From Candidatus Altimarinota bacterium (lineage in GTDB: Bacteria; Patescibacteriota; Gracilibacteria; UBA4473): 34,283 bases of DNA. The position numbers and the translations under genes were made by a program. Shown one piece after another: positions 4,831 through 16,939 of the stretch. The notes below the pieces were generated by a model. The model did not search any database and was not told the DNA's origin. It saw only the letters and a program-made list of their open reading frames with translations. How positions within the stretch are numbered: the stretch's first letter is position 1; the number at the start of each line of letters is the position of its first letter. Location of the stretch: assembly GCA_027028725.1 (NCBI GenBank), contig JALVIB010000030.1, positions 1-34,283 of the forward strand. The letters are read 5' to 3'.

Positions 4831-5571
4831 CTTAGTTTTTATTTAGTAAATAAAGAAAATATTCCCCAAAAAGGGGGCTTTCTTGGGTTTGATTTACCAA
4901 TACAAAAAGCTCGCGAAAAAACACGAGAAAATTGGTAAATCGATATATAAGGTAGTTGAAAAAACTCAATATTAAGTTTTCTCATGGATATTCCGCAGAA
5001 TCCCGCGAAAAAATCCACTAAAAGGATTATTTAAATCCCTTAAAAAATTTCTAGAAAGACTATCATTTCATCTTTCCGGCCGTCTTTTCAAAGATCAAGG
5101 TCATTTGGCGATCCATTACTGGAGCGGGATAAGAGGACACACTCGTCCAAGTTATCCAAACCTGCGCGAATTGTACCTACTTGTCTCCAGAAAGTCAAAC
5201 TTTCGTGATTTTCTAGACACATTTAATACAATGCAAGTAGTTAAACGAATTTCGCGGGATTTTGTTACAAAAAAACTTAGATTACGAGTTCACAAGATTA
5301 CAATAAATTCCCGCGAAAATTTACCATCTTCGTCATTGCGAGGAGCGAAGTATGAGCGACGCGGCAATCTACTTCCTTATTTTCAAATCCCCCTTAATCC
5401 CCCTTTCTCAAGGGGGAAATTTAAGGAATTATTTAAAAATCCCGCGAAATCTTCGCAAAAAATGTAGGGACGCCCTTTATAGGCGTCCAAAAAAAATGAA
5501 TTCCAAATTATCGGGCGACCACAAGGAATCGCCCCTACGAAAAATTTCGCGGGATTTTCCAACAGGGGTGG

Positions 5572-5643
5572 TGGAGCCAAGGAGAATCGAACTCCTATCT
5601 CTGCATTGTCAAGATGAGTATTTTACCATTAAACTATGACCCC
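5572..5643 (-). tRNA. tRNA or tRNA pseudogene with aberrant anticodon arm (GAC/Val register suggested, unresolved)
   Basis: GGGGTCA-TA-GTTT..AAAT-A-CTCATCTTGACAATGCAGAGAT-AGGAG-TTCGATT-CTCCT-TGGCTCC-A plus encoded CCA; acceptor, D and T arms fold, anticodon stem does not pair cleanly. Confidence 0.7.
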
Positions 5644-5666
5644 GACTCCACCAGCGCGGAGTATAT

Positions 5667-5697
5667 AAAAAAAGCTCGCCACAGCAAGCTCTTTTTA
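5667..5697. terminator. Bidirectional terminator-like hairpin next to the tRNA
   Basis: aaaaaaagctcgccacagcaagctcttttt: 7 bp stem flanked by A and T runs. Confidence 0.6.
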
Positions 5698-6290
5698 TTG
5701 ACAATGCAGAGTGGGCCATAACTTTGGCACTCATCACTGGGATAATACCCATTCTTGTTTTATTTGTCAAAAAAAATCCCGCGAAAATTTACCATATTCG
5801 TCATTGCGAGGAGCGAGGTATGAGCGACGCGGCAATCTACTTCCTTATTTTCAAATCCCCCTTAATCCCCCTTTCTCAAGAGGAAAAACTAAGGAATTAC
5901 AAAAAAATCCCGCGAAATCTTCGCAAAAAATGTAGGGACGCCCTTTATGGGCGTCCAAAAAAAGTTAGATTACAAGTTCACGAGTTTACGAGTTCACAAG
6001 ATTACAATAAATTCCCGCGAAAATTTACCATCTTCGTCATTGCGAGGAGCGAGGTATGAGCGACGCGGCAATCTACTTCCTTATTTTCAAATCCCCCTTA
6101 ATCCCCCTTTCTCAAGAGGAAAAACTAAGGAATTACAATAAATTCCCGCGAAAATTTACCATCTTCGTCATTGCGAGGAGCGAAGTATGAGCGACGCGGC
6201 AATCTACTTCCTTATTTTCAAATCCCCCTTAATCTCTTTCTCAAGGGGGAAAACTAAGGAATTATTTTGAAAATTTCGCGGGATTTTCAA

Positions 6291-6314
6291 AAGGACAGGT
6301 CACGACCTGTCCTT
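6291..6314 (-). terminator. Terminator-like hairpin downstream of fusA
   Basis: AAGGACAGGTCACGACCTGTCCTT, 10 bp perfect stem beyond the fusA stop. Confidence 0.65.
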
Positions 6315-6339
6315 TCTTGTTATCTTATAAACTCGTAAA

Positions 6340-12902: not shown

Positions 12903-14087
12903 ATGAATTTGAATTTTAAAATCTCTCCCAAGAATAAAATCCCGCTGCGCCCCGCAAGGCGGCGGCGAAAAATTATTTACGGGGTGACTGATCGGTCAAA
13001 TGATTCTTTGTGGCAAAAAATAAACGACTTTTTAATCGATAATTCACCAATTACCAAGAAAGAAAAAATGGTTTTTTTTAATTCCCTTAAACTTTTAGTC
13101 ACTTCGGGAGTTAATTTTACCAAAGCCATTCACATGATGGCGGAGCGGAGCAAAAATGAGCATTTGAAACGAATTTTACATACCATTGAATACGATATGT
13201 TGAACTCGGGGATGAGATTTTCTGAAGCAATGGCAAAATATCCGCGAGTTTTTAGTGTTTCAGAAATGAAAATGATTTATTCTGGAGAAATCGCGGGGCG
13301 GTTAGAAGAAGTTTTGGAAGCAGTAGCAACGCGAATTCAGAAAAATATCGAAATGGAAATTCGCGTGAAATCGGCGATGATGTATCCGATTACGGTTTTT
13401 ATCGCGATAATTTTGGCGGGAATAGTGGTGATGCTTTTTGTCGTGCCAAAATTTGAAGCAATGTTCGCGAGTTTTGGGAGTGATTTGCCGATTGCGACCA
13501 AAATTATGATTGGAATGTCGCGCTTTTTTCAAGACTACTGGTGGTTTTTGTTATTAATTTTAATTAGTGCTTGGGTAATTTTCCAAAACTGGAAAAAAAG
13601 CGAAGACGGAAAATATCAATGGGACGAGTTTTTATTGAATTTGCCGGGGATTGGTCCATTAATTCGCGATATTCAAACTGCAAAAATCGCGGGAAATTTT
13701 TCCACTCTCTTGGAGTCTGGAATTCCGATTGCCAAAGCGATTCATGTTTTGGGAGAAATTATTGATAACGATGTAATTTCGCAGGTTTTACTGCAAATTG
13801 AACACGAAGTTCGCAAAGGAAAACAAGTTCACGAAGCTTTTGCAGAACACCCAGAACTAGACCCGATTCTGGCAGAAGTGATAGAAATTGGGGAACAATC
13901 GGGAGCAATTCCGCAAGTTTTGCATAAAGTTGGAATGCAGTATGATTTAGAAGTTGACGCGCAGTTGAAAAATTTATCGGCGATGATTGAGCCACTGGTG
14001 ATTTTAATTGTAGGGCTGGCGGTCACCTTTATGGCGTTGGCGATTATGACACCAATTATGAAAATGCAATCGCTTTTTGCCGGCTAA
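12903..14087 (+). CDS. pilC: Type II secretion F family / PilC inner-membrane platform protein
   Basis: 394 aa; LKLLVTSGVNFTKAIHMMAERSKN, FSTLLESGIPIAKAIHVLGEIIDN, IEIGEQSGAIPQVLHKVGMQYD, LVTFMALAIMTPIM. Confidence 0.93.
   Translation: MNLNFKISPKNKIPLRPARRRRKIIYGVTDRSNDSLWQKINDFLIDNSPITKKEKMVFFNSLKLLVTSGVNFTKAIHMMAERSKNEHLKRILHTIEYDMLNSGMRFSEAMAKYPRVFSVSEMKMIYSGEIAGRLEEVLEAVATRIQKNIEMEIRVKSAMMYPITVFIAIILAGIVVMLFVVPKFEAMFASFGSDLPIATKIMIGMSRFFQDYWWFLLLILISAWVIFQNWKKSEDGKYQWDEFLLNLPGIGPLIRDIQTAKIAGNFSTLLESGIPIAKAIHVLGEIIDNDVISQVLLQIEHEVRKGKQVHEAFAEHPELDPILAEVIEIGEQSGAIPQVLHKVGMQYDLEVDAQLKNLSAMIEPLVILIVGLAVTFMALAIMTPIMKMQSLFAG
12940..12970. repeat. Motif split by a 21 bp insert (reverse orientation, in pilC)
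   Basis: TCCC-GCTGCGCCCCGCAAGGCGGCG-GCGAAA. Confidence 0.9.
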
Positions 14088-14155: not shown

Positions 14156-14785
14156 ATGAGTAGTAATTCTAAAAAACAAACTCAAAATAAATTTCCCCCT
14201 GATAAGGGGGTCAGGGGGTTAAATTGTGGATTTACTTTGATTGAATTATTGGTAACAATGTCAATTATCGCGATTTTATTCGCGGTGGGAATGCCGGCGT
14301 TTTCAGATTTTCAAAAAACTTCTCGACTCAAAGAATCCGCGGAAACTTTGGAAACAGCTTTTGGCGAAGCTTTTTCGAGCGCGCGTTCCCGACCGGAATG
14401 TTTTGTGTTTTCGGGATCAGGGAATTCTTTGAAATTAGAAAGTTTTGATAAAACTTGCGAAGGAAATGCAAAAAATTCCCGCGAAATTTCTCTAAACCCT
14501 GGAGTGGAAATTTCTGAAAATTTTAAGATTAAATTCAAACCACCATTTGGTGATTTGGAGCTTGTTGAAGGAGATCTTGAAGATGAAAGTGATGAATTAA
14601 AAATAAAACTGTGTAATAAAGATTGTGTGAATTTTGTGGTTTATCAAAAATCGGGATTGTTGACGAGAAAATCCCGCGAAATTTCGGGGGAGAGTGTTTC
14701 CAAGTCCGGACTTAAAGTCCTGAGTTTTGTCTCAAGTCCGGACTTAGAAAAACACTCGGGAAATTCTAACCACTCAAGACAATGA
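14156..14785 (+). CDS. Type IV prepilin / GspH-like pseudopilin
   Basis: CGFTLIELLVTMSIIAILFAVGMPAF prepilin cleavage motif; leader partly made of a dispersed repeat. Confidence 0.85.
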   Translation: MSSNSKKQTQNKFPPDKGVRGLNCGFTLIELLVTMSIIAILFAVGMPAFSDFQKTSRLKESAETLETAFGEAFSSARSRPECFVFSGSGNSLKLESFDKTCEGNAKNSREISLNPGVEISENFKIKFKPPFGDLELVEGDLEDESDELKIKLCNKDCVNFVVYQKSGLLTRKSREISGESVSKSGLKVLSFVSSPDLEKHSGNSNHSRQ

Positions 14786-15258
14786 GAACGAAACAAAAAG
14801 GATTTGCTTTAATTGAAGTGATTGTTTCCATTGTGATTTTGTCGCTGGTTTTGGTAGCTGCGGTGGGACTTTTGTATTCCGTGGGACAAGCGGTAGAAAC
14901 CAACCGCGACCGCTTAACCGCGACTTATTTAGCGCAGGAGTGTTTGGAACTAGTCCGTAACGCCCGCGATACTTCTTGGAAAAACTACGAGCCATGGGAT
15001 TGCGCATGGAAAGAAACAACGCCTTGTGAGGGAAAACAGATTGTAAACCTGATTAAACAAAATCCAGTAATGATAAATGAAGAAAGTACAAAATTTTCGC
15101 GGGATTTTCAGGTAGAATCAATTGAGAATGTTTTGCAAGCACAAAGAAGCAGAACCTTATCGAATTCCGAAGAAGTGAAAATAACTTGCACCGTCTCGTG
15201 GGGCGAGAATTCCAAACTATCCATTTCGGAAATACTTACTAACTGGCGGAAAAGATGA
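14782..15258 (+). CDS. PilV-like minor prepilin
   Basis: KGFALIEVIVSIVILSLVLVAAVGLLY; ATGA overlap with upstream gene. Confidence 0.85.
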   Translation: MRTKQKGFALIEVIVSIVILSLVLVAAVGLLYSVGQAVETNRDRLTATYLAQECLELVRNARDTSWKNYEPWDCAWKETTPCEGKQIVNLIKQNPVMINEESTKFSRDFQVESIENVLQAQRSRTLSNSEEVKITCTVSWGENSKLSISEILTNWRKR

Positions 15259-15914
15259 GAAAAATTTGGGAAAAAGTTTTTGGTAAAATCCCCCTCAATC
15301 CCCCTTTAAAGAAAGGGGGAGGCTCGCAGCAGGTGAAACAGGATGAAAAAAATAAAAAATTTTCCTTTTTCATCCCCCTTTTTTCAAAGGGGGACAAGAA
15401 GCAGGGAATAAGGCAAAGGGGGATTTTAATCAGAAATTTCGCGGGATTTTCCCTCATCGAATTGCTGGTGGCAATGACCATTGGTGGCGTGATTTTGACC
15501 GCAGTGATGACTAGTTATGTGGCAATGACCAAGACGAGTTTGCGACTGGATTTGGCGCGCCAGATGCAGAAAGAAACAAATTTCGCGGTAATTCGAATGG
15601 TGGATAAAATTCGGAATTATCCGATTAAAAATTGTGATGAGAAAAAATTAGTTTTGCAAAACAGACAAGGACATGAAATTACTTTTAAATTTTTGTTAGA
15701 AAATAAACAACAATTAACTCTCAATGAACAACCGCTTTTTTCGGAAAATATCGCGGTCGATGACGGACATTTTGATTGTAAAGGACTTGATGATGAAGAA
15801 AATCCCGCGAAAATTCAGCCCCGCGTGCAGATTTATCTCCAAGTTTCCGCGAAAAAAGATCCCGAAATCACCAACCGCGTGCAGACGACTATTTCTTCAC
15901 GAATTTTTAACTAA
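15255..15914 (+). CDS. PilW-like minor prepilin with long repeat-derived leader
   Basis: NFAGFSLIELLVAMTIGGVILTAVMTSYVAM; ATGA overlap with upstream gene. Confidence 0.82.
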   Translation: MRKIWEKVFGKIPLNPPLKKGGGSQQVKQDEKNKKFSFFIPLFSKGDKKQGIRQRGILIRNFAGFSLIELLVAMTIGGVILTAVMTSYVAMTKTSLRLDLARQMQKETNFAVIRMVDKIRNYPIKNCDEKKLVLQNRQGHEITFKFLLENKQQLTLNEQPLFSENIAVDDGHFDCKGLDDEENPAKIQPRVQIYLQVSAKKDPEITNRVQTTISSRIFN

Positions 15915-15967: not shown

Positions 15968-16939
15968 ATGAATAAATTAAAAAAACGAATACGAAACATC
16001 TTCCCCCTGACAAGGGGGCGAGGGGGTTTGAAAAACAACGGAATGGTAATCCTCTTGCCGACAATTATTTTATCAGGACTGATTTTGGCGGTAGGACTTG
16101 GTTTGTCGCGGGTTTTGATGACGGAACTAGAATTTTCCGCGGATTTGTTGTTTTCCGAAAAGGCGTATTTCGCGGCGGAATCTGGAGTAGAAAAATCTCT
16201 TTTGGCGCTCAAAGATAAACCGCTTAACTATGTTTCCGAATCGGATAAAGAAGTGGGAACAGGCGCGACTTATGATTTGGAAATTGCTAACTCGGTAAAA
16301 GAATTTCCGTTCGTTTTAGACGAAAACGAAACTATTAAATTCCGCTTGGGAGTGGATACTAATGAGAGTTTCGCGGGATATTCCGTGCGACCGATTACAA
16401 GTTTCAAAGTAGATAATTTAGTGGGAATAAAAAGAAATCTGCACTGGAAAATCCTTTGTTTAGTTGATAGCGGAGGAAATCCCGCCCTTCAACGAAGTTC
16501 AGGGCAAGCCCATCGGCAGAGCTCAGGGCAAGCGAAAAAAACGGTAGCCTTGTCAGGGACAGGAGATAATTTTACCAAAGGAAATTATGATGATGGAGAG
16601 AATGAGATTACAACTGAAACTATAGTGAACTTTTTAGGTAGATATAATTCAGAGGGAAACCCTTGTTTTATGTCGTTATCTAATTTTTCTGAGATAAATG
16701 AAGGAAATTCTAGTCGAACCAACCCTTCAACATTTAACTCACAACAAACTAATAATTCAAAAATTCGCGGGATTTTTAAGCCAATAATTCCCGAAACAAT
16801 CGCTCCAGCAAAAGTGAAAATCACCGCCACGGGAAAAAGTTTTTCCCGCGAAAAAATTGTTTCCTTTGATTATTGGCAAAAGAATCTATCCGCGGTTTAT
16901 GATTTGGGGTTGTATTATACGAAAGATTTAACAGAGTAG
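15968..16939 (+). CDS. PilX-like pilus assembly protein
   Basis: N-terminal TM and FSEKAYFAAESGVEKSLLAL, typical of PilX-N-like proteins in minor-pilin operons. Confidence 0.7.
   Translation: MNKLKKRIRNIFPLTRGRGGLKNNGMVILLPTIILSGLILAVGLGLSRVLMTELEFSADLLFSEKAYFAAESGVEKSLLALKDKPLNYVSESDKEVGTGATYDLEIANSVKEFPFVLDENETIKFRLGVDTNESFAGYSVRPITSFKVDNLVGIKRNLHWKILCLVDSGGNPALQRSSGQAHRQSSGQAKKTVALSGTGDNFTKGNYDDGENEITTETIVNFLGRYNSEGNPCFMSLSNFSEINEGNSSRTNPSTFNSQQTNNSKIRGIFKPIIPETIAPAKVKITATGKSFSREKIVSFDYWQKNLSAVYDLGLYYTKDLTE
16480..16537. repeat. Motif split by a 48 bp insert (in PilX-like gene)
   Basis: TCCC-GCCCTTCAACGAAGTTCAGGGCAAGCCCATCGGCAGAGCTCAGGGCAA-GCGAAA. Confidence 0.8.

Follow-up and report, generated by a model that had tools for sequence, protein, structure and literature searches.

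A non-palindromic word with the core TTTCGCGGGA recurs in 1,473 exact copies across the 0.79 Mb of this genome that was read, against 5.2 expected from its dinucleotide content, and 63 copies lie within the window (the whole stretch of 34,283 nucleotides analysed here). One copy encodes the predicted cleavage site of a minor pilin. The motif most likely behaves like the DNA uptake sequences known as DUS and USS, judging from its sequence and distribution. Our account of the locus, which we hold to be probable with a good deal of doubt left, is that the word is a DNA uptake sequence spread by recombination, that it came to lie at the cleavage site by codon fit, and that the pilin leader is cheap sequence and hence took up palindromic repeats as well; uptake function, translation of the leader, cleavage and receptor are predictions in this account. 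The surprise lies in the tag itself, its position at a cleavage site being mostly a matter of codon fit. The genome measures 1.04 Mb at 99.6% completeness, genomes of the class being similarly small, which suggests Patescibacteria. Scaling the count from the 0.79 Mb read, with about a fifth of the genome outside it, gives ~1,900 copies per genome; ~34 kb of the genome stretches read N.

Alignment of the 1,473 copies gave a logo of 18 bp (positions -4 to +13) with sharp edges, beyond which information falls to the background level. The full word is WWWW-TTTCGCGGGA-WTTT. The two strands are used equally (737 copies on the plus and 736 on the minus strand), and TTTCGCGGGAWTTT was found 1,187 times genome-wide, none reversed. 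The density is 1.86 copies per kb. With genes called as the longest open reading frames, 855 copies are coding and 618 intergenic, corresponding to 1.29 per kb and 4.84 per kb, respectively, by these rough calls. Within genes all six frames are used, leaving the peptide scars NPAK, xFAG, SRE, SRD, FRG and IPR; with 34 cases, NFAGF, as encoded at the prepilin site, ranks among the most frequent motif peptides. An Rfam search returned sub-threshold matches only. A separate 194-nt repeat (family D1), present in four copies at window positions 5302-6330, has the motif inside it.

Outside this genome, counts of the motif were 0-2 in each of 40 sampled relatives, 0-3 in each genome of the class (352 others) and no more than 1-2 per stretch across the remainder of GTDB, a search from which records of the same or a very near genome were possibly excluded. 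Viral contigs scanned with a 15-mer gave single matches only, among the matches listed. As expected of a species dialect, the motif is above chance nowhere else searched (class, GTDB). A different dialect was found in none of the ~40 sampled stretches of relatives, which counts against the uptake reading and implies that such a system would be an innovation of this lineage alone; 20 of these stretches, taken besides those of G001, held no abundant word. A/T-rich words of a sister genus (G001; L071, L150-L169), e.g. TTTTTCAAAA with 162 copies in 0.36 Mb, probably reflect low complexity and not a dialect.

The genome encodes ComEC (7.8e-50), DprA (1.8e-75) and a prepilin peptidase, and gave two matches to a pilus-type ATPase, one of them containing a stop. 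This second match (G000:C60:20959-21780, L193) has an in-frame TAA and is possibly a broken PilT-like gene. Copy excess, a non-palindromic form, occurrence on both strands and in genes as well as between them, restriction to one lineage, and a host with competence genes and type IV pili are traits that the motif shares with uptake sequences. In the mechanism that we propose, type IV pili and ComEC would import motif-bearing DNA preferentially, recombination of the imported DNA would spread the motif by overwriting resident sequence, and in coding DNA the motif would settle where the encoded peptide is tolerated. Transformation of Saccharibacteria requires ComEC (PMC10633639). No report of an uptake sequence in Patescibacteria/CPR was found in the literature covered, outside which most subscription papers lie. 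The longest motif-free stretch, 6.2 kb (L101:12723-18957, G000:C44; 0.014 expected by chance), is a restriction island upstream of nusA encoding an N6/N4 DNA methylase, a DpnII-type restriction endonuclease and an AAA ATPase; a single case, it may parallel Neisseria, in which recently acquired genes are without DUS (PMC2397512).

Spacing and orientation of the copies are less conventional. Neighbours 100-300 bp apart face in opposite directions in 435 cases and in the same direction in 191 (p about 8e-23; genome-wide, L031-L130 and the window included), and the ratio at 100-400 bp is alike for coding (171:94) and intergenic (113:45) neighbours. Such a preference, shared by coding and intergenic copies, would be compatible with a protein that bridges two sites, and together with the high density and even spacing it would fit a chromosome-organising, repair or modification signal unrelated to uptake, such as a nucleoid-protein site or a Chi-like or HIP1-like sequence. 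We consider this rather unlikely, since Chi and KOPS are strand-biased, whereas neighbouring copies here alternate (599 same, 808 opposite), HIP1 is a palindrome, and the motif is absent, as an abundant word, from all relatives. Copies less than 50 bp apart are about four times rarer than expected (30 observed, 125 expected), and only 7 neighbours at this distance face opposite ways, so that close inverted pairs are nearly absent. In Neisseria, closely spaced inverted DUS pairs act as terminators; their near-absence here speaks against a terminator role for the motif and weighs somewhat against the uptake reading, such pairs being common in DUS systems but not essential. We know of no opposite-orientation rule at 100-300 bp in DUS or USS, a further point against uptake, and this rule is the least conventional feature of the motif; recognition of two sites or an effect of fragment length could lie behind it. 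A bolder proposal, to which we give only limited credence, is that a Patescibacteria-like lineage evolved a self-DNA uptake code independently of Neisseria and Haemophilus in which the recognised unit would be an opposite-facing motif pair 100-300 bp apart, with genes densely marked, including those of the reading pilus.

Comparison with orthologs bears on how the word came to its sites. Among 223 coding motif sites with aligned orthologs, 169 (76%) are gap-free nearby, compared with 85% of windows drawn at random from these genes, and residue conservation is lower at motif sites (36% versus 54%). The predominance of gap-free alignments at poorly conserved positions suggests that the word arose mainly by replacement of existing sequence and not by insertion. 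Gaps are nonetheless somewhat commoner than in random windows (24% versus 15%), which speaks against uptake and recombination. A mobile or REP-like element copying itself to new sites would account for the very high copy number and the intergenic preference, and true palindromic repeats do occur in the same genome. The motif itself, however, is not palindromic, its flank conservation ends at 18 bp, most of its coding sites are gap-free and its copies are depleted at short distances rather than clustered, and we regard a mobile element as very unlikely. The motif and the C5/G5 palindromes described below are two different repeat kinds, not one element.

The motif copy at the prepilin lies in an operon of minor-pilin genes (Table 1). 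The 219-aa product has the N_methyl signal, conserved G-1 and hydrophobic helix of a type IV prepilin; its best NCBIfam match is PRK10557 (1.1e-7, under its cut-off). It was matched in 18 of the 19 other family genomes searched, and in an alignment of eight orthologs conservation extends to the C-terminal QTTISSR. AlphaFold2 predicted a helix and a beta domain with confidence from residue 67 on, the leader being of low confidence (pLDDT about 50 or below for most of residues ~20-60). A fold search against the PDB gave no significant match (the TTHA1219 pilin reached a probability of 0.98 but an E value of 0.14).

Table 1. Features of the minor-pilin operon and of the motif site, in window coordinates.
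Feature	Position	Strand	Match
PilC/GspF inner-membrane pilus protein (context)	12903..14087	+	T2SSF 4.3e-50
PpdA/GspH-like prepilin	14156..14785	+	NCBIfam PRK10506 4.7e-8, under its cut-off
CCCCCTGATAAGGGGG repeat in leader of the 14156 prepilin	14193..14220	+	
PilV-like prepilin, short leader	14782..15258	+	TIGR02523 4.6e-8, under its cut-off
PilW/GspJ-like (PpdB-like) minor prepilin gene, 219 aa	15255..15914	+	N_methyl 8.6e-8; TIGR02532
64-residue prepilin leader, ends G64	15255..15446	+	
Dispersed palindromic repeat 1 (CCCCCTTTAAAGAAAGGGGG + flanks) in leader	15277..15359	+	
Palindromic repeat 2 (TCCCCCTTTTTTCAAAGGGGGAC) in leader	15373..15395	+	
Full 18-bp motif instance (logo -4 to +13)	15433..15450	+	
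Core TTTCGCGGGA, encodes (N)FAG of cleavage site	15437..15446	+	
Fourth operon gene, PilX/GspK-like by position	15968..16939	+	Pfam/NCBIfam: no match
CCCCCTGACAAGGGGG C5/G5 repeat near N-terminus of the 15968 gene	16001..16028	+	

The initial annotation held that the motif itself encodes the cleavage site, and this was borne out: the core reads FAG↓F (the arrow marks the predicted cut, G64↓F65), placed by Pfam N_methyl (PF07963, residues 60-85) and TIGR02532 (residues 63-85), within AAT TTC GCG GGA TTT TCC = N-F-A-G↓F-S. Its second claim, that an element was recruited into an essential processing site, found no support. Most ortholog sites read G↓F[ST], in several cases spelled GGA-TTT, two have G↓L[ST] and others A↓F[ST], and neither FAG nor the motif was found at any of the ortholog cut sites compared. 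By the annotation's own standard, unrelated codons in orthologs would refute the recruitment, and the comparison goes part of the way: the residues proved to be the same and several sites even share GGA-TTT, but the motif is absent. Since G↓F[ST] exists in orthologs without the motif, the word appears to have been written over an existing fitting site, for which no special recruitment is needed. A G↓F[ST] site spelled GGA-TTT already supplies the right half of the word, and the leader side of the cut is under loose constraint and is lost on processing, so that the word fits the cut site; it altered only the tolerant -3/-2 residues, and cutting by prepilin peptidase should still give a normal mature pilin from F65.

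In this genome, TTCGCGGGA lies at the cut in six of the 11 G↓F prepilins, three of the six carrying the variant ATTCGCGGGA. A related C-terminal domain joins only two of the six, indicating that placement of the motif at cut sites recurred. This recurrence, and the excess over all GGA-TTT sites (p=0.019), would favour the earlier recruitment idea, taken as selection for the motif where prepilins are cut, be it as a functional element of the coding sequence or as a regulator of pilin genes. Non-pilin GGA-TTT sites lie within a motif in 22% of cases overall but in 38% (32/84) within the first 60 codons, and against these the prepilins do not differ significantly (p=0.23); with the related pair counted once, the p value against all sites rises to 0.048. 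Codon fit plus an unconstrained leader therefore suffices. The motif is missing from five of the G↓F prepilins and from every one of the seven A↓F prepilins listed, ~99% of its copies sit elsewhere, and selection at the cut site seems highly improbable to us.

The leader is long, as the initial annotation had proposed: 64 aa here compared with 5-28 aa in orthologs, one of which (L013) would exceed this range only if translation began at a Met further upstream. Here 188 nt separate the stop codon of the upstream gene from the cut, versus 50 in the closest relative. The annotation had also foreseen that the leader might prove to be intergenic, with translation beginning near the cut and the repeats untranslated. 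In favour of this, an in-frame GTG at 15333 has GGAGG upstream, and ATT and ATC codons lie closer to the cut. The ATG at 15255, however, shares 4 bp with the end of the upstream gene, and this ATGA overlap is kept, with similar flanks, in six of the 10 orthologs tested, which marks 15255 as the inherited start and the leader as part of the gene. Past 15333 there is no in-frame ATG, GTG or TTG, and a start at this GTG would still leave a leader of 38 aa. We therefore think a start near the cut unlikely.

Much of the leader consists of dispersed repeats, again in line with the initial annotation: two C5...G5 palindromic repeats lie inside it, and they explain its 64 aa, the excess length matching them. 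Repeat 1 shares 82% identity with a window copy at 276-358 (family D14, third copy at 115-197) and has 43 full-length or partial BLAST matches genome-wide, of which 32 are intergenic; repeat 2 has 14, 10 of them intergenic. Both are multi-copy, lie in frame within genes and are missing from the orthologs; a few relatives have C5/G5 palindromes as well, in smaller numbers. Leader residues 1-11 (MRKIWEKVFGK) are similar to the leader of one ortholog (L002) and look ancestral. C5/G5 palindromes lie in the N-terminal leaders of three of the four minor-pilin genes that stand side by side here (14193-14220, 15277-15395 and 16001-16028), and with repeats in the 14156 and 15968 genes too, leaders look like cheap insertion places. 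This cheapness is how the unrelated palindromes could have been inserted in frame, lengthening the leader. Elsewhere (L063:7080-7152), a prepilin leader made from a (CA)n tract (THTHTHTH) stands directly before an A↓F cut site.

To our knowledge, uptake sequences have been described from two Proteobacteria families, Neisseriaceae and Pasteurellaceae. If the uptake reading is true, such sequences would have originated independently a third time, and in a lineage of tiny genomes. Comparison could then test what causes them, selfish drive through biased uptake or selection for self-recognition; natural transformation would be indicated as a force in genomes of this size, and a specific pilin could be named as candidate receptor. 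The prepilin site would illustrate that a word of this kind can be written even across a processing signal if the codons fit and the residues are discarded.

Rickettsia palindromic elements are in-frame palindromes inside genes, and the leader palindromes resemble them in being translated in frame inside protein genes; the host differs, and the palindromes here are mostly intergenic. The cleavage site agrees with the type IV prepilin signal (PF07963, TIGR02532) in G↓F, E5 and the hydrophobic helix, while its 64-aa leader far exceeds those of orthologs. Pasteurellaceae USS, like the motif here, consist of a short core plus A/T tracts, and PRK10506, matched by the 14156-14785 pilin, is presumably the PpdA model. 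With the Neisseria DUS dialects and their receptor ComP (PMC3630211, PMC3868556) the motif shares a ~10-bp non-palindromic core, ~1-2 copies per kb, occurrence on both strands and in genic and intergenic DNA, a lineage dialect and a host with type IV pili and ComEC. It differs in an unrelated sequence and lineage, in W/T tracts on both sides, in its few close inverted terminator pairs and in its opposite-facing neighbours at 100-300 bp, and its function is a prediction. Its density is above that of N. meningitidis (about 1,900 DUS per 2.2-2.3 Mb) and below that of Kingella oralis (5,918 per 2.4 Mb; PMC3630211). In Pasteurellaceae the predicted USS receptor is the minor pilin PpdA/ComN (PMC12616744), and the operon here likewise contains a PpdA/GspH-like minor pilin (14156-14785); the core differs from that of USS, and by likeness to ComN, with a weak family match under its cut-off, this pilin is a candidate sequence-specific DNA receptor by analogy.
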